From Chryseobacterium indologenes (GTDB taxonomy: Bacteria > Bacteroidota > Bacteroidia > Flavobacteriales > Weeksellaceae): a stretch of 64,000 nucleotides of DNA. The notes beneath the pieces are model-generated. The model was given only the letters and a program-made list of their open reading frames with translations, had not been told where the DNA came from and did not search any database. Location: contig CP065590.1 of the NCBI GenBank assembly GCA_016025055.1, positions 1,488,001-1,552,000 on the forward strand, read 5' to 3'. Shown here in pieces: positions 2,201 to 59,374 of the stretch; the first letter of the stretch is position 1; every line of letters starts with the position of its first letter. The translations under genes were made by a program, and so were the position numbers.

Positions 2201-3288
2201 ATGAACAGAGATCTCTATATTGATTTTGCCAAAGGGCTGGCTACCTTATCTATTATATTCATCCACACTGCTTTCTGGTCGGGCCAATTTTATATTCCTG
2301 CAGAAGTGAGGGTATTTTCTCTGGTTTTTGATGTCGCTCTTTTTTATGCCTTAAGCGGCATTACTTCCGGATCCAATATTGAGAAAACTTTTTACAGATT
2401 ATTAAAATTACAGATCACTTATATGATCTTTGTAACCTTTTATTTTTTCTGGATTATTTTTTCAAAGTTTTTGGCTTAACATTCTTTTCAATGGATTGGC
2501 TACAGCATTTTTACTCAACCTTTGGATCCAAATATGCAACAACCAGCATTTCAACATCTCCTCAATGGCAGAATTTAGGCAACTGGTACCTTCATCAATA
2601 TACCAATGCAGATACTTTCCCGGTTGTCATGGGCAGTTTTTGGTACTTGAAGGTCTATTTTGTCCTGACCGTCTTTGGAGTATTAATTTTAAAATTCTTT
2701 CCGAAACACATCAATTGGTTTATCGGGGTTTGTGCAGTCCTTACTCTCCTATTCAATATTTTTCCGGAATATTATCCAACCGGACAGGTGGGTTATGTGG
2801 CATTTTATCTTGCCGTATTTTTAATAGGAAACAGAATGCGGGGGAAAAAAATTCCTGCCAAAACAATTCCTGTACTGTATGCTGCTGTCGCCGGAATATT
2901 GGTTTGGATGTTCTGGTATTACGGAAACGATATCTTTTATAAAATCAATAAAAATAAATTTCCACCTAAAATCCCTTACATTATCTGGGCTCAATTCTCT
3001 CTTGTGACCTTATTTGTTCTTTATAACAGATTAAAAATCACCAAGGAAAATTGTATAACCTATATTGGGAAAAATGCTATTTTCTTTTATTTCGCACAGG
3101 GAATCAGTTCTTCGCTGATCTATTTTCTGGTGGTTCCCTTGAAAGAAAATATGCCCTGGTGGGCTTTGATGATCATTATTTATGTCATCAATATCATTTT
3201 GGCATTCATCATCTCCGCAGGGTTGAAAAAAATAGATTCTCTGGGTTGGAATATTTTGGAATTCCTAAGAAGAAAAACGAGTTTTTAA
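2201..3288 (+). CDS. Membrane acyltransferase family 3 protein, reading frame broken once
   Basis: An integral membrane protein of the acyltransferase-3 type, which O-acylates sugars or other envelope molecules. The start MNRDLYIDFAKGLATLSI and an early FIHTAFW resemble the opening D.lRg.a...V...H region of that family. Many hydrophobic segments follow. The first frame stops at 2479, and the rest (from SKF-FGLTFFSMDW on, ending 3288) continues in the -1 frame. Adding one T to the T run at 2468-2472 joins the halves into about 362 residues without other defects, so a sequencing error or recent mutation is more likely than an old pseudogene. The acceptor is unknown. Confidence 0.7.
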
Positions 3289-3362
3289 TACTTTATCGAT
3301 CAAATTGAAATAAACTCAGCATTCTTACTTCAATTTGTTTAAATTTACAAAAAATTTACAAC

Positions 3363-3944
3363 ATGTTTAAGTTGAAACTACCTACCGACCCAAGGTGGGC
3401 AAATATTGCAGAAGGAAACATTGAAGAAATTTTAACGGATCATGCCTGGTGTGAACAAAAAGCGGCAACCAATGCGATTACATTAATCACCATGCTGCCT
3501 GAATATCCGGAAATTGTCACAGAACTTCTCGCTATTGCTCAGGAAGAGCTGGATCATTTCCAGCAGGTACATGAGATCATTAAGAAAAGAGGCTATACCT
3601 TCGGAAGAGCAAGAAAAGATGATTATGTCAATCAGTTGGCTAAGTTTATCATCCAGGGAAGCCGGGAAGATCTGATTGTAGATAAAATGCTTTTCGCCGC
3701 AATGATTGAAGCCAGAAGCTGTGAAAGATTTAAAGTCCTTACTGAAAACATTAAAGATGAAGAATTAAAGGTTTTCTACAGAGAATTAATGATTTCCGAG
3801 GCCAATCATTATACGACCTTCATCGGGTTTGCCAGAGATCTGGGAGAAAATCCCGAAAAAGTAAATAAACGTTGGGAAGAGTGGCTGGACTACGAAGCCA
3901 GCATTATCAAATCCTTTGGAAACAAAGAAACCATTCATGGATAA
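3363..3944 (+). CDS. miaE: tRNA-(ms2io6A) hydroxylase MiaE
   Basis: A 193-residue ferritin-like di-iron monooxygenase that hydroxylates the isopentenyl side chain of 2-methylthio-N6-isopentenyladenosine at position 37 of tRNA. Family features visible are DHAWCEQKAATNAI near residue 27, the iron-ligand pattern QEELDHFQQVH near residue 60, IEARSCERF in the middle, and SEANHY as the last ligand cluster. Length fits the family. The next gene starts 24 bases after the stop, so the two may be co-transcribed. Confidence 0.93.
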   Translation: MFKLKLPTDPRWANIAEGNIEEILTDHAWCEQKAATNAITLITMLPEYPEIVTELLAIAQEELDHFQQVHEIIKKRGYTFGRARKDDYVNQLAKFIIQGSREDLIVDKMLFAAMIEARSCERFKVLTENIKDEELKVFYRELMISEANHYTTFIGFARDLGENPEKVNKRWEEWLDYEASIIKSFGNKETIHG

Positions 3945-3967
3945 TAGATAACGGTAAAGAATATACA

Positions 3968-4585
3968 TTGAAGAAATCAAGCTTTGAACATATAGCCAAT
4001 TTATTTCTGAAAAACTTTTTTCAGGGATTGCTTATTATTGGACCTATAGGACTTACCATTTTTGTGATCTGGTATATTGTAAGCGCAATTGATAATCTTA
4101 TCCCTTCGCTTGCCCATCAGATTCCGGGGCTTGTTTTTGTATCAATAATATTATTTACAGCTATTTTAGGATATTTGGGAAATAAATTTGTGGTAGGAAG
4201 ATTCTTTTTCGACACCATGGACAGTCTCCTGGAAAAAACGCCCGGTGTAAAACATATTTACACCCCCACCAAAGACGTCATGTCTTCATTTGTGGGAGAT
4301 AAGAAAAAATTCAACGATCCTGTATGGGTAAAAACCAATGAGAATCCGGAAATCTGGAGAATCGGCTTTTTAACCCAAAAAGAAATGTCAGACGTTGACA
4401 AGCATAATTATGTTGCAGTATATTTACCCCATTCCTATGCTATTTCAGGGTGGGTAATTGTTACTGAAGAAAAAAACATCAAACCTGTAGTGGGGATGAC
4501 TGCAGCTTCGGCTATGAAGTTTGCAGTAAGCGGCGGTGTAGCCGGATTTCATTCTGACGAAAACATCTTTAAGGCTCCGGAGTAA
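3968..4585 (+). CDS. DUF502 family membrane protein
   Basis: About 205 residues with two membrane segments near the N-terminus (NFFQGLLIIGPIGLTIFVIW and the region around LVFVSIILFTAILGYLG), then a soluble part with FFDTMDSLLEKTPGVKHIY and a late GMTAASAMKFAVSGG. This is the DUF502 pattern; function unknown. The frame is open back to 3872 inside miaE, but the homologous region begins at KKSSFEHIANLFLKNFF and no ATG precedes it, so a TTG at 3968 is the likely start. Confidence 0.8.
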   Translation: MKKSSFEHIANLFLKNFFQGLLIIGPIGLTIFVIWYIVSAIDNLIPSLAHQIPGLVFVSIILFTAILGYLGNKFVVGRFFFDTMDSLLEKTPGVKHIYTPTKDVMSSFVGDKKKFNDPVWVKTNENPEIWRIGFLTQKEMSDVDKHNYVAVYLPHSYAISGWVIVTEEKNIKPVVGMTAASAMKFAVSGGVAGFHSDENIFKAPE

Positions 4586-4677
4586 TCCTCTCCTCTTTCC
4601 TTACCGTACATTGATGAATTTGAAATTATTTTCAGACAGATTTTCTTTACAAACAATTTAAAAACATACTTTAACAC

Positions 4678-6054
4678 ATGAATTTACCGTACGCGGAACC
4701 TTTCCGCATCAAAATGGTGGAAGAAATCCGCCAATCTACAAGAGAAGAAAGAGAACAATGGCTTAAAGATGCCAATTACAACCTTTTCAATCTAAAATCT
4801 TCTCAGGTTTTTATCGATCTTTTAACGGATTCAGGAACAGGAGCTATGTCTGACAGACAATGGGCTGCGTTGATGACCGGAGATGAAAGCTATGCAGGAT
4901 CCCGTTCTTTTGAACAGCTTCAAAATACAGTGGAAAGAATTACCGGTTTCAAATATTTATTACCCACTCACCAGGGAAGAGCAGCAGAAAATGTTCTATT
5001 CTCTGTATTAGTCAAAGAAGGTGATGTAGTTCCCGGTAACTCTCACTTTGATACCACCAAAGGACATATTGAATTCAGAAAGGCCCATGCGATCGATTGT
5101 ACGATTGACGAAGCTTTTGATATCAATGACCTTCATCCATTCAAAGGAAATATTAACCTTGAAAAACTGGAAGCAGTTTATAAAAGTCATCCCAAAGAAA
5201 ACATCCCTTTCTGCCTTATTACTATTACCTGCAACTCTTCAGGAGGACAACCTGTTTCTCTTGAAAACATGAAGGCTGTAAAAAAACTTTCCGATCAATA
5301 TGGAATCCCTGTATTTTTTGATTCGGCAAGATTTGCAGAAAATGCATATTTCATCAAAAAAAGAGAACAAGGTCAGGAAAACAGAAGCATCAAAGAAATC
5401 TGTAAAGAAATATTCTCGTATGGCGACGGAATGACCATGAGTTCTAAAAAAGACGGACTTGTAAACATAGGAGGGTTTATTGCTTTAAATAGTGAGGAAA
5501 TCTTTAGAAAAGCATCCAATTTCACGATTATATATGAAGGGTTTATCACCTATGGAGGAATGGCCGGAAGAGATATGGCTGCGCTGGCTGTAGGCCTTGA
5601 TGAAGCAACGGAATTCCCTTATCTTGAAAGCAGAATCTCACAGGTTGAATACCTTGGAAATAAACTGATTGAGTATGGAATCCCTGTTCAGAAACCGATT
5701 GGGGGCCATGCCGTATTTATTGATTCTCTAAATTTCCTTCCCAATGTTTCCCGTGAAGAATATCCTGCACAGACGTTAGGACTTGAAATTTATAAAGAAG
5801 CTGGAATCAGAACGGTAGAAATCGGAACCCTATTGGCAGACAGGGACCCTGAAACAAGACAAAACCGTTATCCCAAACTGGAACTGGTACGTCTGGCAAT
5901 TCCGCGAAGAACATATACTAATAACCATATGGATTATATTGCTGCAGCAATAAAAAATGTATATGAAAGACGCGAAGAGGTAGCAAAAGGATATAAAATC
6001 ACCTGGGAACCTGAAATATTAAGACACTTTACCGTACAGCTTGAAAAAGCTTAA
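4678..6054 (+). CDS. tnaA: Tryptophanase (L-tryptophan indole-lyase)
   Basis: A 458-residue fold-type I PLP enzyme of the beta-eliminating lyase family that splits tryptophan into indole, pyruvate and ammonia. It has FIDLLTDSGTGAMSD, PTHQGR, DSARFAENAYFIK, and the PLP lysine in MSSKKDG (second Lys, residue 258). Tyrosine phenol-lyase is the close alternative and the overall length is nearer to it. However, where tyrosine phenol-lyase has SMERG with the phenol-binding Arg, this protein has AGIRTVEIG as in tryptophanase, so indole production is the better call. It is monocistronic with its own terminator. I see no TnaC-type leader peptide upstream. Confidence 0.88.
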   Translation: MNLPYAEPFRIKMVEEIRQSTREEREQWLKDANYNLFNLKSSQVFIDLLTDSGTGAMSDRQWAALMTGDESYAGSRSFEQLQNTVERITGFKYLLPTHQGRAAENVLFSVLVKEGDVVPGNSHFDTTKGHIEFRKAHAIDCTIDEAFDINDLHPFKGNINLEKLEAVYKSHPKENIPFCLITITCNSSGGQPVSLENMKAVKKLSDQYGIPVFFDSARFAENAYFIKKREQGQENRSIKEICKEIFSYGDGMTMSSKKDGLVNIGGFIALNSEEIFRKASNFTIIYEGFITYGGMAGRDMAALAVGLDEATEFPYLESRISQVEYLGNKLIEYGIPVQKPIGGHAVFIDSLNFLPNVSREEYPAQTLGLEIYKEAGIRTVEIGTLLADRDPETRQNRYPKLELVRLAIPRRTYTNNHMDYIAAAIKNVYERREEVAKGYKITWEPEILRHFTVQLEKA

Positions 6055-6060
6055 CATATA

Positions 6061-6085
6061 AACCGGACTTAGTTCCGGTTTTTTT
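6061..6085 (+). terminator. Terminator of tnaA
   Basis: Stem AACCGGA / TCCGGTT followed by a T run, seven bases after the tnaA stop. Confidence 0.8.
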
Positions 6086-6284
6086 ACGACTACGCATATC
6101 CGGAAATTTAAAAGAAAGACCTCAGCTGAAAATATCTAACCCATTGTGATTACTATAGTTCTCACCTATAATTTTTTTAACATTCCGATTGTATGGTCCT
6201 TAAAATCCTATGCTCTTCATTTAAATTATTAAAAATCAGCAAACAAATTAATTTATTTTTTAAGAATAGTGAATGTTTTTAATT

Positions 6285-6292
6285 TATTTTTG
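6285..6292 (+). promoter_or_regulatory. -7 promoter element for the FAD/PLP gene pair
   Basis: TATTTTTG fits TAnnTTTG and lies 65 bases before the ATG at 6358. No clear -33 TTG at the right distance. Confidence 0.45.
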
Positions 6293-6357
6293 CACCAGTC
6301 TAATCAATAGGCAAAATATTTTAAACACTAACCTGAAAAAATCCTTTTATTCCGAAA

Positions 6358-7434
6358 ATGAACAAAATTGCTGTCGTAGGCGCCGGTATTTCCGGCTTAA
6401 GCATAGCGAATTACCTGGAAAAACACAAAATAAACTATCATATTTATGAAAGAAGACAAAAAGAAGACCTGGCAGGTCATGGTTTCCTTATTCCACAAGA
6501 GGGAATCGAATACCTGAGTCAGATCATTGATCCGTCTTTGCTGTTTAAACATGGCAGTTTTTTAAAAAAATACACCCAATATTCTCATCAAGGAAAAGTA
6601 CTTGGCGAAAAGGACCTCAACAACGTTTTTGCTATTTGCAGATCTTCACTGATAAGGCTGTTATCTCAACATATATCTCCGGAAAAGATAAGCTACGGAG
6701 AAACACTTGGTTTTGACAGTACAGATAAAGGAAAACTTATATCCAGTGAGGGAACTGAGATTACTGCAGATGTTATTATTGTTTCCGACGGTTCAAAAAG
6801 CCGTATCAGAAGAGAAATTTTCAAGAATGAGAAAATGAGGGCCGTCAGGGAGAATGAAGTAGTCAATATCATTACAAACCGGCAAATTGCAGATAGCATT
6901 GATCATGACTTTATGAAATTCCATCATGAAGACGGCGGATTAACTTTTGGCATTCTTAAACTTTCAACGGACACCATTCTCTGGTATTCACAATTTGATA
7001 ATGAAAAATACCGGATCGATGAATGTTCTCCTGACCATTTAAAAAAATATATGCTTGAAGTCTTTGATGAATGGCATCCTCTGGTGGTATCGATCGTCAG
7101 AAAATCAGATTATGAGAACGTTCATTTATGGAGAGTTTATGAATTGGAAGAACTCAATCCGTTTTATAAAAATAATGTTGTTTTTATAGGAGATGCAGCT
7201 CATCCCCTCATTCCTTTTACAAGCCAGGGCGTTACCTCCGCACTGAAAGATTCTTTTATTTTAACTAAACATCTCGTTGAAGAAAGCAATTTACAGGAAG
7301 CCTTCAGAAAATATGAATCGGATAGAAAACATGAAGTTGAAACCCATATCCAAAACGGAAGAACGCTGTTGGATCAGTTTCTCCTTCCAACAAGCCAACA
7401 GACAGAAAATATTTTACCCATTTCTTATAAATAA
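6358..7434 (+). CDS. FAD-dependent aromatic-type monooxygenase
   Basis: A 358-residue class A flavoprotein. The N-terminus has the dinucleotide-binding VVGAGISGLSIANYLE (GxGxxG at residues 8-13) followed by YERR for the ribose contact. Near residue 274 it has VVFIGDAAHPLIPFTSQGV, the GD motif that contacts FAD, typical of NAD(P)H-dependent aromatic hydroxylases related to PHBH. No signal peptide, so cytosolic. It is six bases upstream of a PLP enzyme and clearly in an operon with it. The substrate is unknown; aromatic amino acid metabolism is possible given tnaA next door, but that is inference. Confidence 0.75.
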   Translation: MNKIAVVGAGISGLSIANYLEKHKINYHIYERRQKEDLAGHGFLIPQEGIEYLSQIIDPSLLFKHGSFLKKYTQYSHQGKVLGEKDLNNVFAICRSSLIRLLSQHISPEKISYGETLGFDSTDKGKLISSEGTEITADVIIVSDGSKSRIRREIFKNEKMRAVRENEVVNIITNRQIADSIDHDFMKFHHEDGGLTFGILKLSTDTILWYSQFDNEKYRIDECSPDHLKKYMLEVFDEWHPLVVSIVRKSDYENVHLWRVYELEELNPFYKNNVVFIGDAAHPLIPFTSQGVTSALKDSFILTKHLVEESNLQEAFRKYESDRKHEVETHIQNGRTLLDQFLLPTSQQTENILPISYK

Positions 7435-7440
7435 AAAAAT

Positions 7441-8598: not shown

Positions 8599-8758
8599 TA
8601 TTAAAATTTTTCACTAAAATTCATTAAAAAGTTATTTTTATACTAGATTTTATTATTAACAATAAAATTTTAAAAATTTCATAACAAATAAATATTTTCA
8701 ATGATATTTTAAATAATTATTGATATTTTTGAATTAACCACTATTCAAAACCCTCAAT

Positions 8759-11196
8759 ATGAAAATAAAATACATCAGCATTATTTTTCTTGGTGTCTCT
8801 TCACTATCATATGCCCAACAGGTACAGGATACCATAAAAGAATCAAAGATAGATGAAGTAGCCATCACCGGAAGCCGGAATAAAAAAGAACTGTCATCAA
8901 TACTCCTGTCCCTATTGACATCATTGATATCAAGCAGGTCAGCCAGTCGACAGGCCAGGTGGAAGTGAATCAGCTCCTGCAGTTTGCCGCCCCGTCTTTT
9001 AACTCCAATAAACAATCGGGTTCCGATGGTGCTGATGCAGTAGATCCGGCGACTTTACGAGGTCTCGGACCCGACCAGACTTTGCTTCTATTGAATGGAA
9101 AAAGATATCATCAGTCTTCTCTGATTAATCTTTTCGGGACTAAAGGGCGAGGAAATACGGGATACGATATGAACACCATTCCCATCGGTGCTATAAAAAG
9201 AGTGGAAGTTCTGCGCGACGGAGCTTCAGCTCAATATGGGTCAGATGCGATTGCAGGGGTAATCAACGTCATTCTGAATGATCGTAATAAAGGCTTTGAG
9301 GGAAATGCATTCTATGGGATGAATCTTTTTAAAAGCCCCGGAAACAATGATGTGGTTTCGGATCACAAAATCGATGGAATAACATTTAATTTTAACGGAA
9401 ACCTGGGAACTCAGATAGGATCTAAAGGTGGATTCGGAAATTTCACTGCAGAATTCAGCACCAAGGATTATGCGATAAGAAACGCAAATCCGGAAATCTA
9501 TAACGATCCTGATCCTGCCCCCAGACAACGTTTCGGAGATGCCAAAGCGCAAAATGTATATTTCTTTGGCAATATTGAACTTCCTCTGTCTGACGGTCTT
9601 AAGTTTTATTCCCGTCAGGGGTTTTCACATAGAAATACAAAAGCTTATGCATGGACCAGAACAGCGGCTGCCGATGGAAACATACCCGGGATCTATCCGA
9701 ACGGATTTAATCCCATTGAAAACACAAGTATCACCGACTTCACTTTTGACAATGGTTTAAAATTTAAAGTAGCTGACTGGGAGGTAGATTTTTATAATGC
9801 ATTTGGAAACAACAGGTTTACTTATGAAATTGATGATACCGTCAATGCTACTTTAGGATTAAAATCTCCTACCAGCTTCAATGCAGGCGGACACTCTTTA
9901 CTCCAAAATACTACCGGATTTAATGCCGTCAGACAGTTCAAAGTACTGGAAGGGTTAAACATTGCCTTCGGATCAGAGTTCCGATATGAAAAGTTCAATA
10001 TTATCAAAGGAGAAGAGGCTTCTTATACCATGTATGATATTAACGGAAATATCGTAACCCGTGATACTCCGACAAATCTACTGGTAACCAACCCGATAAG
10101 CGGAGCTGTAAGACCGGGCGGCTCCCAGGGCTTTCCTGGATATTCCACCGATATTGGAAAAAGCAGGAATAATTTTGCAGCGTATGTAGATACTGAACTT
10201 GACATTACAAAAAAATGGATGATAAGTCTGGCGGGAAGATTTGAGAATTATAACGACTTCGGAAGTACTTTGAATGGAAAGTTTGCCACAAGATATGCCT
10301 TTACTCCCCAGTTTGCTTTCCGGGGATCTTTTTCTACGGGCTTCAGAGCTCCTTCATTGGCACAGAAATATTACAGTCAGCAATTCACCAATTTCCAGGG
10401 AGGAAAATTGGTAACCATTCAATTGGCCTCTAATGACAGTGACCTGGCTACAAGGGTAGGCATCTCTCAGCTTAAGCAGGAAACCTCGGTAAATGGGAGT
10501 GCCGGATTTACTTTTAATACCGGAAAATTTACAGCAACGGTGGACGGGTATTATATCAATGTTAAAAACAGGATTGTTCTTACAGGGAACTTTTCAAGGA
10601 GTGACCTTCCTACAGATGTTCAGACCGATTACCCATATATAGATCAGGCGCAGTTTTTTTCCAATGCAATCAACACCCGTACTAAAGGAATTGATGTTAT
10701 TCTAAGTTACAATGAAAATATCGGATCAGGAAAGTTAACCGCAACTCTTGCCGGAAATTACAATGATATGGAAATAACAAAAGTTAACACTTCTGACCGG
10801 CTGGCCGGCAAGGAAGACATTTACTTAAGTCCGCGGGAAAGAGCTTTTATCCTTGCATCTGCTCCGAAAACGAAAGTTAACCTAAACCTTAATTACAAAA
10901 TCAGCAAGTTCAATGTTAATCTGCAAATGGTAAGATTTGATAAAGTTACACTGATTGGATATGATAACGCAGAACAGGTATACAACCCAAAGGTAACAAC
11001 GGATTTATCTTTTGGTTATGAATTCTCCCAAAGCCTGAATCTGACGCTGGGAAGTAAAAATATATTTAACCGATACCCTACATTACAAAGTGCTCATGTA
11101 ACAACCGGAAATACAGAAGCAGGAGGTATTTTTGACCCTGTACAAATGGGATTTGCCGGACGACAGGTTTTTGCCAGATTGAACTTTAAATTTTAG
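8759..11196 (+). CDS. TonB-dependent receptor, frame broken near the N-terminus
   Basis: An outer-membrane active transporter. A signal peptide ending in SYAQQ is followed by a TonB-box-like KIDEVAITGSR. The plug (TLRGLGPDQTLLLLNGKRYH, then VEVLRDGASAQYGSDAIAG) and a long beta-barrel ending in VFARLNFKF follow. The opening frame stops at 8968. Adding one A to the run at 8882-8887 restores NKKRTVINTPVPIDIIDIKQ, a normal start of the plug, and joins it to the frame ending at 11196, giving about 812 residues. No SusD partner is nearby. The 'VDPATLRGLGPDQTL' type plug is common in receptors of unknown substrate, so no ligand is assigned. Confidence 0.85.
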
Positions 11197-12584: not shown

Positions 12585-12991
12585 ATGAAAAGTTTACTAT
12601 CTTTTTTGCAATCAAAAATTTAGACGGAAAAAAAATTACTTATCAGAATTGTAATGTACTTCTTACAAAGAATGATCTTGCGCCATTTAGCTTCTGGAAT
12701 ATATGGGAGACAGCTATGCAAATGACGGCAATATTGACCCTAGAATTTACAGCTGCTAATATTTCCGCACAAAAAGGGATTATAAAATCTGTAGCTTACA
12801 TTCATATTGATACCACCGGAAAAACAACGGACATCCAAGTCTCAGGGGAAAATGAAACTTTTAACAAAGAGCTTCTCCAGACAGTCACCGGGATAAGCAA
12901 TGAAACCATGTGGATACCTGCAACAGAAAATGGTAAAGCCGCCGCCGCAGTATTAAAACTGCCGGCAACGATGTCCTTCGGTCACCAGTAG
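12585..12991 (+). CDS. Small protein with TonB C-terminal-like domain, N-terminal frame probably broken
   Basis: The open frame ending at 12991 has no ATG until 12717. An ATG at 12585 (MKSLLSFLQSK) runs into a stop after 12 codons; adding one A to the run at 12614-12618 joins it to the long frame as SKNLDGKKITYQNCN, giving about 135 residues. The middle has a hydrophobic stretch ending ANISAQ that may be a signal or anchor. The end, with SVAYIHIDTTGKTTDIQV, a W near the end of a helix, PATENGKAAAAVLKLPATM, resembles the TonB C-terminal fold seen in many flavobacterial periplasmic proteins. Function unknown; the restored start is inference. Confidence 0.55.
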
Positions 12992-18195: not shown

Positions 18196-19173
18196 ATGTT
18201 TTCAGTGAATCATCAAAAATTTATGGAGATGGACGAACTTTCCCTTCAGAAAGTTCCCTATTTTTTCGTCATCGACTTTCTGGCAGAGAATGTTGAGATA
18301 TATCCGGAAAGTGAAATTGAAAAATCAGGCTTAATAATTGATTTTCATAACTTTTCAACCATAAAAAACAAACATACATTAGATAAAAAAATAGAATGGA
18401 AAGCATTTCCCGAACCTATGGAAAGCTTTCAGAAAGGCTTTGAGCAGGTTCAAAAAAATATTCACCTCGGAAATTCCTATCTGGTAAATTATACGAGAAA
18501 AACTGAAATTGAGACCAATTTAAGCCTTGAAGAAATTTTTTATCACTCGAATGCGAAGTATAAGGTATTTTATAAAGATTTTTTTGTATTTTTTTTCTCC
18601 TGAAACTTTTGTGAAGATCTTGGACGGTAAAATTTTAACCTATCCCATGAAAGGAACAATAGATGCTTCTATCGAAAATGCAGCAGAAATTCTGAAGAAC
18701 GATAAAAAGAAAAAGCAGAACATTATACTGTAGTAGATCTGCTTCGTAATGATCTGAGCATGGTGGCAGAAGAGGTAAAAGTGGATGATTTTCAACATAT
18801 TGACTTAATAAAAACCCAGCAAAAGGATCTCTATGCCATGAGCTCTGAAATTTCAGGAATAGTAAAGCCTGAGTTCAAGGGAAAAGTTGGAAGTATCATG
18901 AAAAAGCTGCTGCCTGCCGGTTCAATTTTAGGAGCGCCAAAACCTAAGACGCTGGAGATCATCCGGGAGGCTGAAGGATATGAAAGAGGCTATTACACGG
19001 GAGTATGCGGCTGGTTCGATGGTGAAAATGTAGACAGTTGCGTGATGATACGCTTTATAGAAAAAGAGGGCGAAAAACTCTATTTCAAAAGCGGAGGTGG
19101 TATTACCCACATGAGTAAATTAGAAGACGAATATCAGGAAATGAAAAATAAAATCTATGTCCCAATTCATTGA
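18196..19173 (+). CDS. pabB: Aminodeoxychorismate synthase component I, frame broken twice
   Basis: A chorismate-binding enzyme of about 325 residues that aminates chorismate on the way to p-aminobenzoate and folate. The motif YPMKGT matches the PIKGT of PabB, with the Lys that distinguishes it from TrpE (PIAGT). Further family motifs are DLLRNDL, LLPAGSILGAPKPKT, RGYYTGVCGWFDG and SGGGITHMS. The frame shifts at the eight-T run at 18589-18596 (one T too many) and shifts back at the A runs at 18704-18714 (one A too few); with both corrected the protein reads through. It overlaps pabC by 17 bases. No glutaminase (pabA) gene is adjacent. Confidence 0.85.
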
Positions 19174-26606: not shown

Positions 26607-29256
26607 TTATTCTGCTTCAGAATTTTCTTTCTTTTTGAAAATCCCTTTCAGAAATCCCTTCTTTTCATTTTGGGTTCTTTCTGTTTAGACTGTGTCTTAT
26701 TTTTGATTTCCTGTTTTACTTCTTTCACAGATTGCTTCATTTCTTTCACGGAGGAAACGGCGTTCTTTACTTGTTGTTCTGTCTTTTCTACATTTTTACC
26801 GATTAACGTTTTCTTTAACCCTTGTTCAATTCCTTTCCAGAAAAGATTAAAGAATGACTTTGTAGGATCACGCTCCACGTTCTCCACGGTAACCGATTCC
26901 GGGAAACGCCCCGAATCTGATTTCAGGAAAATATTGGCAACGGCGGTCAAAAATCCTTTCTTCTCATGATTTTCTTTATTTAAAACCGCAATTTTTAAAT
27001 CTTTATGCTTCAAATTAAATGTTCCATTCAATCCTGCAGGATTTCCTTTAAAATTGAAAAGCATCTCCTGAATGGTTCCCGCTGTAGCAGTAACATGAAG
27101 GTAAGGCCTGATAAACGGATTGATGCCACTGGCAGGAAGATTCTGTGTTTTTCCGGAAATACTAAAAGCATCCCTATGATCTGCCACATCAAAATTCCAG
27201 TTCACGGATAATGGAGCCAAATTCATAAATGAGCAGTTGATTTTAATATCAACCTTTGTTGGTTTTCCTTTTTCTTTCGCAGAATTCAGATTTTGTACAT
27301 TCATATTGAAATTACTGAATATCAGCTTCCCGGGACCCATACTTTCCGGGGTATCTTCTTCGTAAACCAACACCGAATTTTTAATATCCATATTCGATAC
27401 AGTCATCGGAATTTTAATGGACCGCAGCATCTTTGAGTACAAAGCTTTTATTTTTGGATCATCTTTAGGGATTTTACTTCTGAAAATATTGGCGTCCGCA
27501 GATTGGATGGTGACATGGGATGCATTCACAGACTTATTTTTAGAAAAAAGATCCCACACTCCCTCCGCTGTTATCTGACCAGCCTTCAGATCATACAGAT
27601 CCCTTTCAACAGGTATCATTTTGATAAACTGAGCTCTCGAAACGAGAGGTTTCATGGCAAAATTATTAATCTGAATTTTATTTTTATTCAGCTTTAAAAG
27701 ACCAAGGCTAAGATTATAAAATTGAGTCTTATAGGCAAAGTTTCTGGTGGTCAGGAAATAATCCTTCACCTCAAAGGATAATCCCTGATTATGAGGATCA
27801 GGCGCCAGTTTAATGTCATTTACAGTGGCATTCAGGTCACGAAAAGATAAAGGCTGCTTTCCTTTATTATAGGTAATATTGGAATTTTTCAAAGAAACTT
27901 TCCGGATAATCATTGAATGGATGAATCCCGGACCCTTTTTTTTAGTGGATTTATGATCCCCGGCTTTTACCGTTCCATTAACATTTTCAACAAGAACATC
28001 CTTGACGTCCAGCACCAGTTTTTTATCGACAAAAGCAAGTTTATTGATATGAAAAGCAATATGACTGGTTTTCATATCCATTATGGTTTTTCCTTCAGAA
28101 ATAACACCGGGTGAGAATGAAATATCGTTGATCTCTCCGCCGGCAGGCTGTAAGGCAATACTTCTTATATGTACATTCTGATGGTCAGAATACTCGATAT
28201 TCTTCCCTGAAAAAGTAAAATCTTTATATCCGACCGGAATCATCTGCTCCGAAGTTTCTTTATTAAACAATAAAGTATTGATATTCAAATTCAGATTTCC
28301 GGCAGACAAGAGTTTGTTTCCATCCGGTTTATTAATCTGAATGACCGCATTATTAAGTTTAATTTTTTCTAAATTAACTTCAAAGTTGGATTTTTTCTCG
28401 CTTTTTTGTGCCTTTACTCCTGTCTTATAAACGGTAAGGACAGGATTTTGAAAATCAGCGTTCGCCAGAGAAACTTTATTTTTATGAAGAACCACATCTT
28501 TGAAATCCATTTTGGGAATGGTGAATTCAAATAATTGAGTTTTCTTCGGATAATATTTTTTAAACTGAGCAAAGGACAAAAGCGGAATCAACCTGAACTG
28601 ATTCATAGACATTTGTCCGTTGGCTGTATTCATTGAGTTAATCGTAATGGCATACACATTGTCCGGACGAAAAAGAAGTGTTGCCCTTTGATGCTGTAGC
28701 GATCAAAAACCACCGGCAGTTTATCTTCAACAGATTCTTCCGTCATTTGCAGATTTTCTACAAATAAATCCAGTTGTCTTACGGATAAAAACTTTTGTTT
28801 GGTATGCCTGAAAATCGTAACAGATCCATCATTAATCCTTATATTATCAAATAAAACAGGATTTCTTTTCTTACCTGTTTTCTGGTCAATCGGTTTGGCC
28901 AGAATTACATTAAGGTTAGGTTTTGACAACAGCAGATCTGAAGAACTTATCGTCTTGTTAAAGATCGCGTCATAAATATCAAATCGACTTATTTTTAAGG
29001 TATCAATAGTTCCTTGCAGGCCAATAACATTGGTATTTTGCGGATCCTTATTATTCACAGAAATGCCTGTAGCAAGGATATTTCCTGTTCCAAGATCCAC
29101 ATCCAGTGTTTTATAAGAAACCTTATAATCGGTTTTGTTTTTGATGTAATCAGGAAGTTGGGTTTTAAGCCAGATATTCAGTCCGAAATTTACAACCAGA
29201 ACAAGCCCAGCCATAACGCCGAAACTAATTAACAGTCTTTTTACCCATTTTTTCAT
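26607..29256 (-). CDS. Large AsmA/DUF748-like envelope protein, frame broken twice
   Basis: One N-terminal membrane segment (LLISFGVMAGLVLVVNFGL) then a long beta-rich periplasmic body with repeated basic and hydrophobic strands, as in AsmA/DUF748 proteins that bridge the envelope. The first frame (208 codons) ends early; one more T in the coding run at 28674-28670 restores HFFFRPDNVYAITIN and joins the next frame. At the other end the frame stops at 26648 just after EPKMK. One more base at the run 26671-26668 would instead give KNEKKGFLKGIFKKKEN and a stop at 26607, a typical basic tail. Restored length is about 883 residues. Function inferred from family only. Confidence 0.65.
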
Positions 29257-45134: not shown

Positions 45135-45197
45135 ATAGGCTTTTCCGAAACATCTTTAGGTGGAAGAAAAGATCATTAAATAGAATAATTACTAAAA

Positions 45198-47260: not shown

Positions 47261-48918
47261 ATGATGAAATATTTACCTTTTTTGTTGTTATTCCTTTTTT
47301 CATGTCAGGAAAAAATTGTCGAAGATCAAAGTAGTATTGAGGGAAATAGCCTCTATGATCAAGGCATTGGATTATTGCTTAAAGATGATGTTACAGCGTA
47401 CTCAAAGTTTCAACAAGCAATAAATTATTTTGCTAAGCAAAAAGACTCATCTAATATATCGAAAAGCTTAATTTGCCAAGCCATTGCACAAAAAAGCAGC
47501 GGAGATATATTAGGTGCAGAAGCAACATTAGTGGAGGCATTAAAAATGATGAAAGAAAATGATGAAAGTTTTTTTTCCGTTTATGATACGATGGCCAATC
47601 TAAAATTAGATCAAAAAGAATATAATGATGCTATCAATTGGTATAATAAAGCACTCTCTGAAAAAATTCCAACCGAAGAAAGCAGGATTAATATTTTATG
47701 CAACAAATCAGTCGCTGAATTTAAAACAGGAAAACACTACGAAGCCTTAAAAATATTATATTCTATCAATCTATCAAAAATTAATAATCAGAATTTGGTT
47801 AACAGAATTAAAGACCTTATTGAATATGTAAAATGGTTGGACAACAAAACCTATCCAGCAACAGAAAAAATAGAACTTATATTAAAAGATAAATTAAAAA
47901 ATGAGGATTTTTGGGGAGCTAATTCTTGCTACTCTCATTTAGCAGAAATAAATCAAAATCTAGAGCCAACGAAGTCTCTGCACTATGCACAGCAAATGTA
48001 TGATAATGCTATTAAAATAAAAAGCCCGGATGATAGGCTACAAGCTCTAGAGCGAATAATTCTAGTGGATGATCCGTCCCATTCCAAACAAAACTTTAAA
48101 GAATATAAAATTCTTTCAGATAGCATTGAAGCCAGCAGAAATAATTATCGAAAACGTTTTGCTTTCATTAAATACGACAGTGAAAAGAAAGAAACAGAAA
48201 ACCAAAGATTAAAAGCAAAAGATGCAGAGAACAAAATTGAAATCTTACAGAGAAATATCGGAATAACTACCCTACTCGTTCTGTTAACAGTGGGATATTT
48301 CTGGTATAGAAGGAGAAAAAAACGTCTTCAACAGGAAAAAGAACTCGAGGTAAAGAACACTGAACTCAAATATTCTAAAAAAGTACATGACAAAGTGGCC
48401 AATAAAGTCTACCATGTCATGTCCGAAGTAGAAAATATTCCTGTTATTGACAAAAACGAATTGCTGGATAAGCTGGAAAGTATTTATCATATTTCCCGTG
48501 ATATTTCCTATGATGACAAAGACCTGGTTCTGGAAAAAGATTTTTCAAAGCAACTATCAAAAATGTTGAAATCGTATTCTTCGGATACCATTAAAGTTCC
48601 TATTATTGGCAATGAAGAGGATATTTGGAGTGGAGTCTCAGATACTGCTAAAAGCGAAATCTTCTATATTATGCAGGAATTGATGACCAATATGAGAAAA
48701 CACAGTAAAGCAGATCGTGTGATGATTGATTTTGAAAGAGAAAATAACCTTATTATCATTTTATATTCAGATAACGGAGTGGGAATTCAGGAACACATTC
48801 CCAGAAATGGCTTGAAAAATACGGAATCCCGTATAAATTCTATAAACGGAACAATTAATTTTGAAACGCAAACAGAAAAGGGATTAAAATAAACCTTTCA
48901 TTTCCAGTCAAAAAATAA
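47261..48918 (+). CDS. TPR-containing sensor histidine kinase, C-terminal frame broken
   Basis: About 552 residues if corrected. Lipoprotein signal with FLFSC near residue 17, about 300 residues of helical TPR-like repeats (for example ESFFSVYDTMANLKLDQKEY, DAINWYNKALSE), a membrane helix (ITTLLVLLTVGYFWYRRRKK), then a coiled linker, a phosphoacceptor region KYSKKVHDKVANKVYHV, and an ATPase with MQELMTNMRKHSKAD (N box) and SDNGVGI (G1). The open frame stops at GLK; one more A or G at 48876-48882 would give GIKINLSFPVKK and a stop at 48916-48918, the usual end of this kinase type, only four bases from the response regulator. Confidence 0.8.
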
Positions 48919-50560: not shown

Positions 50561-50590
50561 AAAAAGGTATCCTTGCGGGGATACCTTTTA
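50561..50590. terminator. Bidirectional terminator
   Basis: AAAAGGTATCC / GGATACCTTTT stem between converging genes. Confidence 0.85.
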
Positions 50591-50592
50591 TT

Positions 50593-51658: not shown

Positions 51659-51721
51659 TTTTGAATGTATTTTAGAAAAATAAACCACTAAGAAAAGCTC
51701 TTAATGGTTATAATATTTATT

Positions 51722-52482
51722 TTAAACTTTATCTTTTATCCAGTTGAACAGGATCTCATTGAATTCATCTGGTTTTTCCATCATCGCTGCGTGGCCACAA
51801 TGGTCTATCCAGAATAAATCCGAATTCGGAATAAATTTATGCATATCTTCCGCAACTTCCGGAGGAGTTACATTATCCTGTTTTCCCCAGATTAAACAAG
51901 TTGGGGTTGTAATCTTAGGAAGATCATTCAACATATTGTGTTTGATGGCACTTCTGGCCAGCATCACCGTTTTTATTCCTTTCATACGGTCATTTACCAC
52001 TCCGAAAACTTCATCTACAAGATCTTCTGTAGCTACCTTAGGATCATAAAACACTTCTTCCGTCTTCTTTCTGATGTAAGATCTGTCGTTCTTTCTCGGA
52101 AAACTATCCCCGAAAGTTCTTTCATATAATCCTGAGCTTCCCGTTAAAACAAGAGTTTTTACAAGATCCGGTCTTGCCAAGGTTAATATAAGCCCTATAT
52201 GCCCTCCCATTGAGTTTCCTACAATAGAAACAGGTCCGGAAATATGACTTTCTATAAACTTGATAATATATTTTGCTAAAGTGGTAAGATTCGTATTGAG
52301 TACCGGCAGATCGTAAATAGGCAGCTGAGGAACATATACCTTATATCCTCTTTCCGAAAAAAATCTACCATTTTATCGAAATTACTCAAACCACCCATTA
52401 ACCCGTGCAACAGCACTAATGGATGTCCTTCTCCCGCTTCTACATAGGAATATTTCTTTTCTTTTTTTGTACTAAATATCAT
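51722..52482 (-). CDS. Alpha/beta hydrolase, frame broken once
   Basis: Restored length about 253 residues. YVEAGEGHPLVLLHGLMGG contains the oxyanion HG; the nucleophile Ser is in VGNSMGGHIGL, the Asp in WGKQDNVTPPEVAEDM, and the His in DHCGHAAMMEKP. The frame from the start (ATG at 52482) breaks in the A run at 52357-52363 (coding T run); adding one base gives VDFFSERGYKVYVPQLP and continues into the frame ending at 51722. A typical serine hydrolase of unknown substrate. Upstream in-frame sequence to 52527 is not needed. Confidence 0.78.
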
Positions 52483-52705
52483 AAGTCGCCTTAATAAAGC
52501 CCTGCAAAAATACAAATTAAACCTCAAAAATATTTTGATTATCCTAATTTAAGATAAAAATAATACAATATTCTCCTTTTTAACTTTTTTTTTGAAAACC
52601 TCTTTACTATGGCTTAAATAACACTTTTATCAACTGACAACATATCAGTATTTTACGTTCTTGAAATTAAATCTTTGATAAAACTTATTAACATTGAGTC
52701 AAAAA

Positions 52706-52731
52706 GTGGGAAAAAGTGGGAAATTTTGGAA
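52706..52731 (+). promoter_or_regulatory. MraZ operator
   Basis: Three repeats at exact 10-base steps, TGGGA (52707), TGGGA (52717), TGGAA (52727), match the known TGGGN operator of MraZ, which represses its own operon. They end ten bases before the -7 element. Confidence 0.75.
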
Positions 52732-52740
52732 ATTATTATA

Positions 52741-52748
52741 TAAATTTG
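52741..52748 (+). promoter_or_regulatory. -7 promoter element of the dcw cluster
   Basis: TAAATTTG, exact TAnnTTTG, ending six bases before the mraZ ATG at 52755, so the transcript would start at or just before the ATG. Confidence 0.55.
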
Positions 52749-52754
52749 TCCCAA

Positions 52755-53212
52755 ATGAAAAATTTCATTGGGACATATGAGTGTAAAATTGACGACAAAG
52801 GCCGCTTAAAAGTTCCTTCATCTTTAATCAAACAGATGGAAAACTTCGACGATAAGGCGTTTGTAGTCAAAAGATCTGTGTTCCAACCTTGTCTGGAAGT
52901 TTATCCTATGAATGCATGGGACAAACTGATGGGCAAAATTAATAAACTGAACAGGTTCATAAAAAGAATGCTGATTTCATACGAATGTTTACCGCAGGAG
53001 TAAAAACAGTAGAATTGGACAATGCCGGAAGACTGCAGATTTCCAAAGACCTGACGCTTTTTGCAAATCTTCAGAAAGATATTGTGATCACCAGCGCAGG
53101 AGAACTCTTTGAAATTTGGGATAAAGAAGCCTACGAAAAGGTAATTGCCACCAATGAAACCGATTTTGCAAGCCTTGCTGAAGATGTGATGGGCTCTTTT
53201 GATGAAGATTAA
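52755..53212 (+). CDS. mraZ: Transcriptional regulator MraZ, frame broken once
   Basis: About 152 residues. Two SpoVT/AbrB-like halves: MKNFIGTYECKIDDKGRL...SLIKQM and TVELDNAGRLQISKDLTLF, the DxxGR signature appearing twice (DDKGR, DNAGR). MraZ binds the operator upstream and represses dcw transcription. The first frame ends at 53003 after RFIKRM; adding one A to the run at 52961-52965 gives RFIKKNADFIRMFTAG, the normal continuation to 53212. Given the intact operator, the gene is probably functional and the break an error. The ATG at 52755 matches the family start. Confidence 0.88.
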
Positions 53213-53263
53213 CTGTTTATAGCTATTAATAAAATATTTATTTAATAAAAAACACAACTAAGC

Positions 53264-54157: not shown

Positions 54158-54241
54158 AGGTGAATCACCGAATGGTCAATCTCAAATTTTGAAACTAAGA
54201 CCGACAAGGAAATTCACCGCGAAGCAAATTGACATTATAAA

Positions 54242-54607
54242 TTGGCAAAAAGAACAACAAATCGCCCACAGAAGAGACTCACTTTTATAGACATTATAAA
54301 AGGGAATTTCCTCAACCGCGATGAGATCAAAATACATTACAAGTATTTCCTCCTGTTGTTTATCCTGATGATGGCTATGATTTACAGTAACCATCTCGTC
54401 AACAAGAAAATTAAAATTGTCAATGCTCTAAAAGAAGAAACTGAAGAATATAAATCGAGAAATGCTTACGCACAAAGTAAGCTGATCAAAGTAAAAATGG
54501 AATCAGAGTTGGGGAAAGAAGTAGCACGGGACTCATTAATGACCCTTGAAAACCATCCTCATAAATTGCTAATAAAACTGGACAGTACAGATGCAAAAGC
54601 AAAATGA
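54242..54607 (+). CDS. ftsL: Division protein FtsL-like
   Basis: 121 residues: a short basic cytosolic start, one membrane helix (YFLLLFILMMAMIYS around residue 35) and a coiled-coil outer part (VNALKEETEEYKSRN, LIKVKMESELGKEV). This fits the bitopic FtsL of the divisome, and the position before ftsI is the standard dcw place. The start codon is TTG, as no ATG is available before MAKRTTNR. Identification is from position and topology rather than strong sequence motif. It overlaps ftsI by 17 bases. Confidence 0.75.
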   Translation: MAKRTTNRPQKRLTFIDIIKGNFLNRDEIKIHYKYFLLLFILMMAMIYSNHLVNKKIKIVNALKEETEEYKSRNAYAQSKLIKVKMESELGKEVARDSLMTLENHPHKLLIKLDSTDAKAK

Positions 54608-56582
54608 ATACGACAATAAACGTAAAAAAACGTTAAGATGGGGCTACCTCTTCGCAGTGGTGGCTTTGTGCGTGTTTGTAATGTTCTTGGCAAGGATCGT
54701 AATCCTTCAAAATACTAATGTTCAGGAAATTAAAGACGATTACATTAATAAAAACTATCGTGAAGCCACTCTGAAAGCTGCCCGCGGAAACCTCTTCGCT
54801 TCCGACGGATCTATTCTCGCAACTACTGTAATGCGCTATGACATCTATCTTGACTTTAAAACAATGAAAGATACGGTCTATAGCAACAATATCGGAGCGT
54901 TGACGGATTCTTTAAGTAAAATGTTCGGAAAGTCAAGAGGAGAATTCAGACAAAAATTTGACGAACAAAAAAAGAAGAAAAACCAGTATTATACTTTGGT
55001 AAAAGGGCTTGATTTTGACGAATATGACAGAATCAGACAATTCCCGATCTTTAAAAGAGGTAAAAATAAAGGAGGTTTCATCGTTGACAGAAACTATAAA
55101 AGAGAATTGGCAACTTCAGAAATCGGAGCCGGAACCATCGGTATGGATAACGGTGAGCTAAAATCCGGACTTGAAGGGGCTTTCTCAAAGTACCTGACAG
55201 GAACCGACGGTAAGAGACTGGAACAAAGAATCAATTCTTCACAATGGAAACCGATTGACTTCTGGAAGGTTCAGGAACCCATTGACGGAGAAGACGTTTA
55301 TACTACTTTAGACCTTAGAATTCAGGACATTGCGCACTCCGCACTGGAGAAGCAATTGATCCATTATGAGGCAAAACACGGCACCGTGATCGTGATGGAA
55401 GTTGAAACCGGAAAAGTTCGTGCATTGGTAAACCTGAGAAGAACAGAATCAGGAGATTACGAAGATTCTTACAACTATGCCCTGAAAGATAATATCGAAC
55501 CCGGATCTACCTTTAAAACCATTTCTCTTTTAGCAGCAATGGATGACGGATTCATCGATGAAAATACAACGGTAAACGTTGGAAACGGTGTCTGGACCTA
55601 CGCAAAACAAAGAATATCAGATGGTCACGGCGGAGGAACTTATGACATCAGTGACGTATTAGCAAAATCCAGTAATGTTGGAACGGCAAAACTGATCACA
55701 AAATATTATGCCGAAAAACCCCAGATCTTCCTTGATCACCTGAAACGTTGGAAGCTTTTTGATAAAATGGACATCGAACTTCCGGGAATCACAAAACCGA
55801 AGATCCTAACACCACAAAACAAAAGATGGAACGCTGCCACACTGGCTTCTATTTCATTCGGATACTCATCCAATGTCAATCTGCTTCAGCTGGCCACCTT
55901 CTATAACGGGGTAGCCAATGGTGGTAAAATGCTTAAGCCCCTGTTCATCGATAAGATCATGAAAGACGGAAAAGTAATGTACAATTCCAAACCGGAAGTA
56001 ATGGTTAATAAAATGGCTTCAGAAAAGGCCATAAAAATGATGACCAATGCCCTGACAAAGGCTGTTGAAAAAGGAACCGGACGAAGTATTTTCACGCCCA
56101 ATCTTAAAATGGCGGGAAAAACAGGGACTGCAAGATTTGAATACTGGCTTCCCGGCCCGATGAAATACCGCGCATCATTTGCAGGCTTTTATCCGGCAGA
56201 TGCCCCAAAATATACCTGCTATGTCATGGTAAGTGAGCCTAATACAGCTATAGGATTCTACGGAGGTCCGGTTGCTGCACCGGTGTTTAAGGAAATTGCA
56301 GGAAAAACATTCCTGAAAACACCTCAGAATATCGAAAAAGAAATGCTGGTAGACAAGAAAGTAAATCTGAGCAAAATGGTGGAGCCGAATGTCAAAGTAG
56401 CAGTCAATGATAAGCAAATGCCTAATGTTGTAGGATTAATCGGTAAAAATGTAATCCCACAATTAGAAAACTTAGGATACCGTGTCGACTACAAAGGTGT
56501 TGGAAGAATTAAAGAACAATTCCCTTTAGAAGGGACAACGATCAGTAAGAACCAGAGAATTTATTTGTCTCTGCAAAATTAG
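54591..56582 (+). CDS. ftsI: Division transpeptidase FtsI/PBP with PASTA domain
   Basis: 663 residues. N-terminal membrane helix (YLFAVVALCVFVMFLARIV), a dimerisation domain with ARGNLFASDGSILATT, then the transpeptidase: catalytic SxxK at residues 306-309 (GSTFK), SSN in KSSNVGTAK, KTGT in MAGKTGTARF. The C-terminal part beginning MPNVVGLIGKNVIPQLE is a PASTA domain, which is uncommon in proteobacterial FtsI but known in Bacteroidota. It makes septal cross-links and should work with FtsW. Confidence 0.92.
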   Translation: MQKQNEYDNKRKKTLRWGYLFAVVALCVFVMFLARIVILQNTNVQEIKDDYINKNYREATLKAARGNLFASDGSILATTVMRYDIYLDFKTMKDTVYSNNIGALTDSLSKMFGKSRGEFRQKFDEQKKKKNQYYTLVKGLDFDEYDRIRQFPIFKRGKNKGGFIVDRNYKRELATSEIGAGTIGMDNGELKSGLEGAFSKYLTGTDGKRLEQRINSSQWKPIDFWKVQEPIDGEDVYTTLDLRIQDIAHSALEKQLIHYEAKHGTVIVMEVETGKVRALVNLRRTESGDYEDSYNYALKDNIEPGSTFKTISLLAAMDDGFIDENTTVNVGNGVWTYAKQRISDGHGGGTYDISDVLAKSSNVGTAKLITKYYAEKPQIFLDHLKRWKLFDKMDIELPGITKPKILTPQNKRWNAATLASISFGYSSNVNLLQLATFYNGVANGGKMLKPLFIDKIMKDGKVMYNSKPEVMVNKMASEKAIKMMTNALTKAVEKGTGRSIFTPNLKMAGKTGTARFEYWLPGPMKYRASFAGFYPADAPKYTCYVMVSEPNTAIGFYGGPVAAPVFKEIAGKTFLKTPQNIEKEMLVDKKVNLSKMVEPNVKVAVNDKQMPNVVGLIGKNVIPQLENLGYRVDYKGVGRIKEQFPLEGTTISKNQRIYLSLQN

Positions 56583-56640
56583 AAAACAGAGTCCGAAGGG
56601 ACGATTTAACAAAAAATAGGATAAAGTCCTGTTGATAAAA

Positions 56641-58100
56641 ATGACAGTAACAGAATTAGTAAACAGAATTCCGGTAGTAGAAATTCACGGTGATAGCAAC
56701 CGTGAGGTATCTGAACTGGTGATCGACAGCAGAAAGGTTACAGCGAACTCTCTTTACATTGCAATGAGAGGTACAGTGGTGGACGGACATTCGTTCATTG
56801 CTTCCGCTATTGAAAAAGGAGCAACAACGATCGTTTGCGAACAATTACCTGAAGGACCGGATGAAAATATCACTTATGTGGTGGTAAAAGATTCTTCAAA
56901 GACTTTAGGACACCTTGCATCCAATTTCTTTGGAAACCCGTCTCAAAAGCTGAAACTGATCGGCGTTACCGGAACCAATGGTAAAACCTCAGTTTCTACC
57001 CTTCTTTTGATGTGTTCAGAAATTTAGGATATGATTCTGCTTTACTATCCACTGTTGAGATCAGAATTGGTGCAGAAGTCATTCCGGCAACCCATACCAC
57101 TCCGGATGTGATTACCATCAACAGGATTTTAGCAGAAGCTGTTGAAAAAGGATGTGAGTATGCTTTCATGGAAGTAAGTTCCCACGGAATTGCCCAAAAC
57201 AGAATTGAAGGATTGCACTTCAAAGTGGCAGGATTTACAAACCTTACCCATGATCATTTAGATTATCATAAAACGTTTGAAGAATACCTGAAAACAAAGA
57301 AAAGATTCTTCGACGGACTTGAAGATACCGCTATTGCCATCACCAATGCAGATGACAAAAACGGAAAGGTAATGCTTCAGAACACAAAGGCAAAAAAGAA
57401 GTCTTATGCGCTGAAAACAATGGCAGATTACCACGGAAAATTGCTGGAGGTTGATTTCAACGGGATGCTGTTGAACTTCAACGGAAAAGAATTCTGGACG
57501 ACACTGACCGGTAAATTCAATGTGTACAATTTATTACTTGTATTCGGAATTGCAGAAGAACTCGGTTTTGAACAGGATGAAATTCTACAGGCCATCAGCA
57601 AATTAAAAAGAGTTTCCGGAAGATTTGAAACGTTCAAATCCGATGGAGGAATATTCTTTATCGTAGATTATGCCCACACTCCGGATGCCCTGGAGAATAT
57701 TCTGGACAGCATCAATGATATCAGAACAAAGAATGAAAGATTAATCACTGTTTTCGGTTGCGGAGGCGACAGGGATCACTCCAAAAGACCTGAAATGGGA
57801 AATATTGCCACCAAAAAATCAACACTGGCAATCATCACTTCAGACAACCCGAGAACAGAAGATCCTGCACAGATCATCAAGGAAATTGAAGCAGGCGTTG
57901 AACCTCAGAACTTCAGCAAATACACTTCAATTCCGGACAGAAAAGAAGCCATCAAAATGGCTATAAAGTTTGCAGAACCTAAAGATATTGTTTTGGTAGC
58001 CGGAAAAGGACACGAAAACTATCAGGAGATAAATGGTGTCAAACATCATTTTGATGACAAAGAAGTAATCAATGAGCTTTGGAAATTAATGAGTAAATAA
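56641..58100 (+). CDS. murE: UDP-MurNAc-L-Ala-D-Glu:meso-DAP ligase, frame broken once
   Basis: About 487 residues after correction. Mur ligase that adds meso-diaminopimelate. LIGVTGTNGKTSVSTLL is the P-loop; HTPDALENIL, GCGGDRDHSKRPEMG, and the DAP-specifying DNPR in TSDNPRTEDP are visible. The first frame ends at 57027 after TLLLMCSEI; adding one T to the run at 57005-57008 restores TLLFDVFRNLGYDSA and the downstream frame to 58100. Being essential, murE cannot be truly broken in a living strain. The ATG at 56641 (MTVTELVNRI) is preferred over a TTG nine bases upstream. Confidence 0.93.
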
Positions 58101-58133
58101 TATTGAAAGATTAATTTAAATTAAAAAAGAAAC

Positions 58134-59374
58134 ATGCTATACTATCTATACGAATATTTAACCAACCATGGAATCCATGTTCCGGGATTAGGAATGTTGA
58201 AATACATTTCCTTCCGTGCCGGAATGGCGGTATTGCTCTCTCTGATCATTGCTCTTGTCTACGGAAAAAGAGTCATCAACTATCTGAGATCAAAACAAAT
58301 GGGAGAACTGGTGCGTGACCTTGGTCTGGACGGGCAAAAACAGAAAGAAGGAACCCCTACCATGGGAGGACTGATCATCATTTTGGCCACCATTATTCCT
58401 GTACTGTTATTTACAAGAATCACCAATGTTTATATTGTATTATTGCTGGTTTCAATGTTGTGGATGGGGGCTATTGGCTTCGTAGATGATTATTTGAAGA
58501 AAATCAAAAAAAACAAAGATGGTCTTAGTGGCAAATTTAAAGTAGTAGGACAGGTCGGATTAGGGTTAATTGTCGGAGTTACAATGTATTTCCACCCCGA
58601 CATTACCGTTAAAAGAAAATATGCCGATGCAAAAGTGGTGAACAGAAACAACGTAGAGCAGAACTTTATGCCTACCGAAAAAATCACCGTTTCTACTGTG
58701 CCTTTTGCAAAAAACAACGAGTTTGACTACAGCGGAATTTTGTTTTGGATGAATGATAAAGATGCCCACGAATGGGCATGGGTTGTCTTTATCCCTATCG
58801 TTATATTCATCGTAACGGCTGTTTCAAACGGTGCCAACATCACCGATGGGATTGATGGTCTCGCAGCAGGTACAAGTGCCATTATTCTACTTACACTGGC
58901 TCTTTTCGCCTACCTTTCAGGGAACATCATCTTTGCAGACTACCTCAATATCATGTTCCTTCCCAATATGGGGGAAACGACCATTTTGCCGTAGCAATGG
59001 TAGGTGCTGTGATTGGATTCTTTTGGTACAATACCTATCCGGCCCAGGTTTTCATGGGAGACACAGGAAGTTTGATGCTGGGAGGAGTAATTGCTGTTTT
59101 AGCCATTATTTTAAGAAAAGAATTACTGATCCCTGTATTATGCGGAATCTTCTTAATCGAAAACCTTTCCGTAATGCTTCAGGTCATCGTTTTCAAATAC
59201 AGAAAAAGAAAATATGGGTTAGAATATGCCCAAAACAATAGATTGTTTAAAATGTCACCGGTACACCACCACTATCAGAAGGTAGGATTCCACGAAAGTA
59301 AAATCGTGAACAGGATGATCATCATCGGTGTTGTATTGGCTATCATATGTTTAATCACATTAAAAATGAGATAG
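58134..59374 (+). CDS. mraY: Phospho-MurNAc-pentapeptide transferase, frame broken once
   Basis: About 413 residues. Polytopic enzyme that moves phospho-MurNAc-pentapeptide to undecaprenyl phosphate, forming lipid [26 protein letters not shown] with the catalytic [18 protein letters not shown], and [13 protein letters not shown] in the second half are family motifs; the loop between ([14 protein letters not shown] etc.) is the enlarged Bacteroidota insertion. The frame stops at 58994 after ETTILP; one more T at 58984-58987 restores [15 protein letters not shown] and reads to 59374. Essential, so the break should be an error. Confidence 0.93.

Follow-up and report, generated by a model that had tools for sequence, protein, structure and literature searches.

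One-base frame breaks at A/T runs in a Chryseobacterium indologenes genome: very probably errors of the sequence record

The window, i.e. the whole stretch of 64,000 nucleotides that was analysed, comprises bases 1,488,001–1,552,000 of a single-contig genome of 4,920,726 bases. It carries genes for an acyltransferase, a TonB-dependent receptor, an AsmA/DUF748-like protein, a TPR kinase and an alpha/beta hydrolase, together with pabB, mraZ, murE and mraY (Table 1). The names mraZ and kinase were taken over as given from the first-pass annotation, which had been made from the letters alone; the kinase domains scored below the Pfam cut-offs. Loci matching the ftsI-like protein of the window were nearly all titled Chryseobacterium, and 80 of 150 were kept. 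Among these 80 named loci, L005 was the nearest by DNA (88.5% identity). The AsmA-like protein was 97.4% identical over 883 aa to P0001, a protein labelled Chryseobacterium indologenes, and its region was matched in 24 of 39 genomes, own included, the best other genome reaching 77% DNA identity. The genome holds six 16S copies of equal length throughout. Its completeness was 97.24% (CheckM-type), compared with 98–100% in 55 of 59 other genus genomes; the four remaining genomes of this draw showed values of 95, 95, 90, and 87.

Table 1. Frame breaks and the remnant gene in the window (window positions; support is the share of relatives or alignments that agree).
Feature	Position	Strand	Change	Support
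Acyltransferase gene (PF01757; about 2201–3288)	2438–2448	+	net loss	both references
TonB-dependent receptor gene (about 8759–11196), near gene start	8882–8887	+	net loss	2/2 relatives
TonB_C-like gene of the first-pass annotation	12603–12991	+	remnant with multi-base deletions	
pabB (18196–19173), first break	18589–18596	+	net gain	31/31 relatives
pabB, second break	18704–18714	+	net loss	31/31 relatives
AsmA/DUF748-like gene (about 26607–29256), near 3' end	26667–26671	-	net loss	
AsmA/DUF748-like gene, other break	28667–28674	-	net loss	2/2 relatives (28670–28674, DNA)
TPR kinase gene (starts 47237), near 3' end	48885–48891	+	net loss	
Alpha/beta hydrolase gene (51722–52527)	52355–52364	-	net loss	81/82 DNA, 79/79 protein alignment
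mraZ (52716–53212)	52960–52965	+	net loss	81/82 DNA, 79/79 protein alignment
murE (about 56641–58100)	57005–57008	+	net loss	82/82 DNA, 79/79 protein alignment
mraY (58134–59374)	58984–58987	+	net loss	81/82 DNA, 79/79 protein alignment

The DNA of each site was aligned with the 80 named loci, 29 pabB loci, and 400-kb stretches of two relatives, G025 and G007. A tblastn-only scan overlooks breaks near gene ends; therefore, frameshift-aware protein-to-DNA alignment was used instead. A frame break supported by both G025 and G007 is called a both-reference break. The count over 79 loci omits the locus L018, because L018 is itself full of breaks.

The first-pass annotation had listed twelve one-base homopolymer breaks in ten genes, eleven of them losses and one a gain. 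Eleven of the twelve were frame breaks against intact relatives and nine of the ten genes were confirmed as broken, with ten net losses and one net gain of one base compared with the relatives. The comparison with the same loci of Chryseobacterium relatives, which it had proposed as a check, gave one-base net differences at most of the listed runs. The acyltransferase and kinase breaks had been misplaced by roughly 10–30 bases, and the site at 12614–12618 was dropped, since no break was found there. For the acyltransferase, the T run at 2468–2472 was net zero in 2/2 relatives by DNA alignment; the frameshift-aware alignment placed the break at 2442 with both references, and the DNA alignment placed the gap at 2440–2441. 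For the kinase, the break fell a few bases beyond the run at 48876–48882, with support from one reference in the both-reference scan, two DNA alignments at 48888, and 3/6 covering loci. The extra base claimed at the first pabB site was borne out by DNA alignment with every relative (31/31). At the second pabB site the exact lost base is not resolvable inside an A/G stretch. The site at 26668–26671 was ambiguous by DNA (net +2 in 2/2 relatives), and both references backed the frameshift-aware break; past the 26668 break, 20/20 residues of P0001 were identical to the AsmA-like protein.

Two further events were left out of the count, one at 54235–54238 found with 6/79 loci by frameshift-aware alignment and one at 45183–45194 found with one reference. 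To gauge the chance level, the tblastn scan was run on the relative loci, 20 of the 80 serving as references; a supported break appeared in 3/80 relative loci, and 13/15 of the events in this chance scan fell in L018 alone. L018 belongs to Chryseobacterium sp. E1 (CP078104.1), likewise a complete-genome record, in which 22 kb of this gene cluster contain 13 supported breaks. In its dcw region the breaks are far denser than in the genome of the window, and it stands there as a second, more error-rich complete genome record of Chryseobacterium.

The TonB_C-like gene was of a different kind. The first-pass annotation had placed a one-base break in its run at 12614–12618, but two relatives aligned without a gap from 12603 on, through this run. 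A 7-base gap was observed near 12700 against one relative, and about 240 residues were missing by a large internal deletion, so that residues 111–140, 143–159, and 399–473 of the 476-aa G025 homologue were left. The region was matched in 24/118 genus genomes, own included, and a Pfam search with its 142-aa ORF matched no family. As far as sequence can tell, this is probably a truly decayed gene, a true pseudogene among artefacts.

We extended the break scan to 1.3–1.7 Mb (first stretch) and 1.7–2.1 Mb (second stretch) of the chromosome. These two adjoining stretches include the window and cover 800 kb, 16% of the genome, and the both-reference scan covers genes common to this genome and both relatives. 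The scan detected 77 both-reference breaks (44 in the first and 33 in the second stretch), of which 61 were losses (35/44 and 26/33, respectively). When the relatives were taken as target, G025 and G007 showed 0 and 1 such breaks in the first stretch against 44 here, and 0 and 5 in the second against 33. Of the relatives' proteins with a match in this genome, 42/225 and 58/273 met a break in the first stretch and 37/239 and 43/270 in the second. The control of relative against relative gave 5/225 and 5/228 for the first stretch and 6/248 and 6/245 for the second. In this genome, roughly every sixth shared gene is broken. With its own ORFs as queries, breaks appeared in the relatives for 20/239 and 28/291; these counts are not controls, as breaks are expected there from broken queries. 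By proportion, the scan suggests about 470 breaks genome-wide, a floor because the count was limited to genes common to both relatives.

The density along the first stretch was uneven, with 0, 3, 8, 11, 9, 7, 5, and 1 breaks per 50 kb and 23–41 kb of matched coding sequence in each bin. The outer bins, C1:1300001–1350000 and C1:1650001–1700000, showed 0 and 1 breaks against 3–11 in the six bins between; our guess is that uneven read depth lies behind the low-break bins. Two of the 44 first-stretch events (window 2191–2194 and 13172) lie upstream of ORF starts; they are probably start-region mismatches and were retained in the 44. Some breaks were real multi-base deletions, namely the one near 12700 and a net -7 event.

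The identity of the broken genes bears on whether the organism could carry such changes. The genes serS, murE, and mraY are essential and single-copy, and a viable cell cannot lose all three together. The proteins of intact relatives scored as murE, mraY, and serS above curated cut-offs, and serS had one genome match above cut-off with one stop inside. Relatives of FolD, MiaB, and RecN were also among the broken genes, FolD and RecN below the strict cut-offs. The broken genes were as well conserved as the intact ones in two comparisons (39/211 broken, p = 0.93; 32/224 broken, counted with G025 alone, p = 0.32), and their divergence was no different either (p = 0.52). Nonsense codons were not in excess, with 2 and 5 in-frame stops here against 4 and 2 in the relative-against-relative comparison. 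The breaks were therefore indifferent to gene importance and conservation, as is expected of homopolymer error.

These results bear on two readings in which the changes are real. The first is a decaying genome whose breaks are ordinary pseudogenes. The remnant at 12603–12991 is one gene of this kind, but the nonsense codons are not in excess, the broken genes are neither more divergent nor less conserved, and essential genes are among them. Genome decay was rejected for want of a nonsense excess and of raised divergence in broken genes, and we consider it very improbable. The second is a mutator isolate with hundreds of recent true one-base slippage mutations. Replication slippage also climbs with run length, and very recent mutations would show no relaxed selection yet. 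However, the mismatch-repair genes mutS and mutL showed no loss: mutS is open over 869 aa and mutL over 619 aa, both with no internal stops. In addition, serS, murE, and mraY cannot all be lost in a viable cell. With mutS and mutL open and serS among the broken genes the mutator was rejected as well, and very little credence, as small as for decay, is left to it. A second MutS-family gene at C1:341876–342846 was observed as two abutting pieces in different frames, perhaps one more break.

Run length was analysed at sites where both relatives agree on the length. The A/T runs of this genome were one base short in 2/371, 3/159, 5/61, 0/13, and 3/5 cases at lengths 4, 5, 6, 7, and 8–9, respectively. 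In the controls, 1/370, 1/158, 0/57, 1/14, and 0/2 runs of G025 and 0/366, 1/158, 0/57, 0/14, and 0/2 runs of G007 were short at lengths 4–8. The shortening rate in this genome climbed with run length, with length 7 (0/13) as the exception. Simply tallying the run lengths gave no clear separation between the window and the relatives.

The base next to the shortened run gave a further signal. In the first stretch, a G directly after the A-run was observed in 24/32 shortened runs, where 10.1 were expected. This bias was spotted after the fact, and the second stretch alone is its test; there the bias, predicted before scoring, was found in 14/22 (p = 0.002). The pooled value was 38/52 against 17.3 expected from the relatives' coding runs. 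The pooled set was obtained from the 61 both-reference losses, of which 54 had an A/T run of at least 4 at the break and 52 a recorded length of 4–7. The excess was present at coding A-runs (28, expected 13.5) and at coding T-runs (10, expected 3.7). Single-reference losses showed a weaker bias, with a G after the A-run in 6/16 of the first and 8/14 of the second stretch. In a run-level count, 18/242 runs followed by G were shortened, compared with 7/196 followed by C and 12/368 followed by T. This context rule is blind to the coding strand, which speaks for an origin in the reading of double-stranded DNA, such as occurs in sequencing. A mutational process acting on DNA would also be strand-blind, and the joint loss of several essential genes argues against it.

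The same bias bears on the alternative raised by the first-pass annotation, in which the frameshifts are real and the proteins are rescued at A/T runs, either by slippage of RNA polymerase or by -1 frameshifting on the ribosome. The slippery site of dnaX is A AAA AAG, and the enrichment of A-runs followed by G is reminiscent of it. The predominance of losses (35/44 and 26/33) would also suit such a mechanism, and slippage rescue has been proposed for endosymbiont genes in the cited part of the Blochmannia work (PMC3017870). However, the ribosome and RNA polymerase follow the coding strand, so a strand-blind G bias argues against frameshifting by either: a mechanism that reads mRNA predicts otherwise than the like bias found at coding T-runs. 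The runs here are mostly 4–7 bases, compared with tracts of at least 9 in the Blochmannia genes as there described (PMC3017870). At four sites 79/79 relatives are uninterrupted and the shift site is not conserved. In the portion of a transcriptome study available, no transcription error was seen to restore a frame (PMC5574713). Corrective frameshifting was rejected, as the G excess is present whether the coding strand carries an A-run or a T-run; strand symmetry and short runs speak against the slippage and programmed frameshifting that had been suggested, and its probability appears close to nil. The DNA being as recorded, with hundreds of one-base indels, most often at A-runs followed by G, in genes including serS, murE, and mraY, and a general frame correction at coding A- and T-runs, is just as exceedingly improbable.

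Known systems were compared on the basis of parts of the published accounts. According to the Homopolish account, the errors left uncorrected in nanopore assemblies are mostly frame-shifting indels in homopolymers, with 151–5298 pseudogenes in Racon-Medaka R9.4 assemblies (PMC8011154). Those nanopore assemblies resemble the present genome in that one-base homopolymer indels shift frames and inflate pseudogene counts; the A-run-then-G bias of this genome was not met in the cited part of that paper (PMC8011154). In one example of the Kastor account, errors in <0.05% of the genome led to 23.3% pseudogenes (PMC12007338). There, as here, deletions after homopolymers predominate, but the species are other ones and the described insertion contexts are unlike the few gains here (PMC12007338). 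From these extracts, this genome fits published long-read error patterns (PMC8011154, PMC12007338). The Blochmannia case, in the excerpt cited, is alike in showing single-base indels within A/T tracts, in genes that are otherwise free of degradation; it concerns eight genes with long tracts and a proposed slippage rescue, compared with 77 breaks in 800 kb, mostly short runs, and a context bias blind to the coding strand in this genome (PMC3017870).

Taken from sequence comparison, the breaks are very probably systematic homopolymer-length errors in the assembly consensus and not changes in the organism. The first-pass annotation had favoured this explanation, and it is now backed by the density over 800 kb, the breaks in essential genes, the indifference to gene conservation, the lack of a nonsense excess, run length, and the strand-blind context; the completeness of 97.24%, below that of most genus genomes, also fits it. 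As the error reading expects, breaks are spread across the sampled 16% of the genome and nearly absent from the relatives. The uneven density, the 0/13 at length 7, the unclear run count, the 5 breaks of G007, and the few real multi-base deletions were counted against it. The cause would lie in sequencing or assembly, probably in long reads without accurate polishing, and nanopore is the likeliest platform, although the sequence names none. A base caller or polisher would under-count A/T runs, mostly of lengths 4–7, and leave them one base short. Under-counting would be commonest where an A-run is followed by G, with over-counting rarer. Every miscount would shift one reading frame, and about one shared gene in six would seem broken.

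The finding is very probably an ordinary artefact and no real feature. Were the breaks real, the organism would be a bacterium with wholesale frame correction, for which there is no support here. In comparable assemblies, error sites might be flagged with the aid of the A-run-then-G rule. Gene counts, pseudogene claims, and completeness scores taken from this assembly will be wrong, and apparent pathway gaps, such as those at pabB, murE, and mraY, will likewise be wrong.
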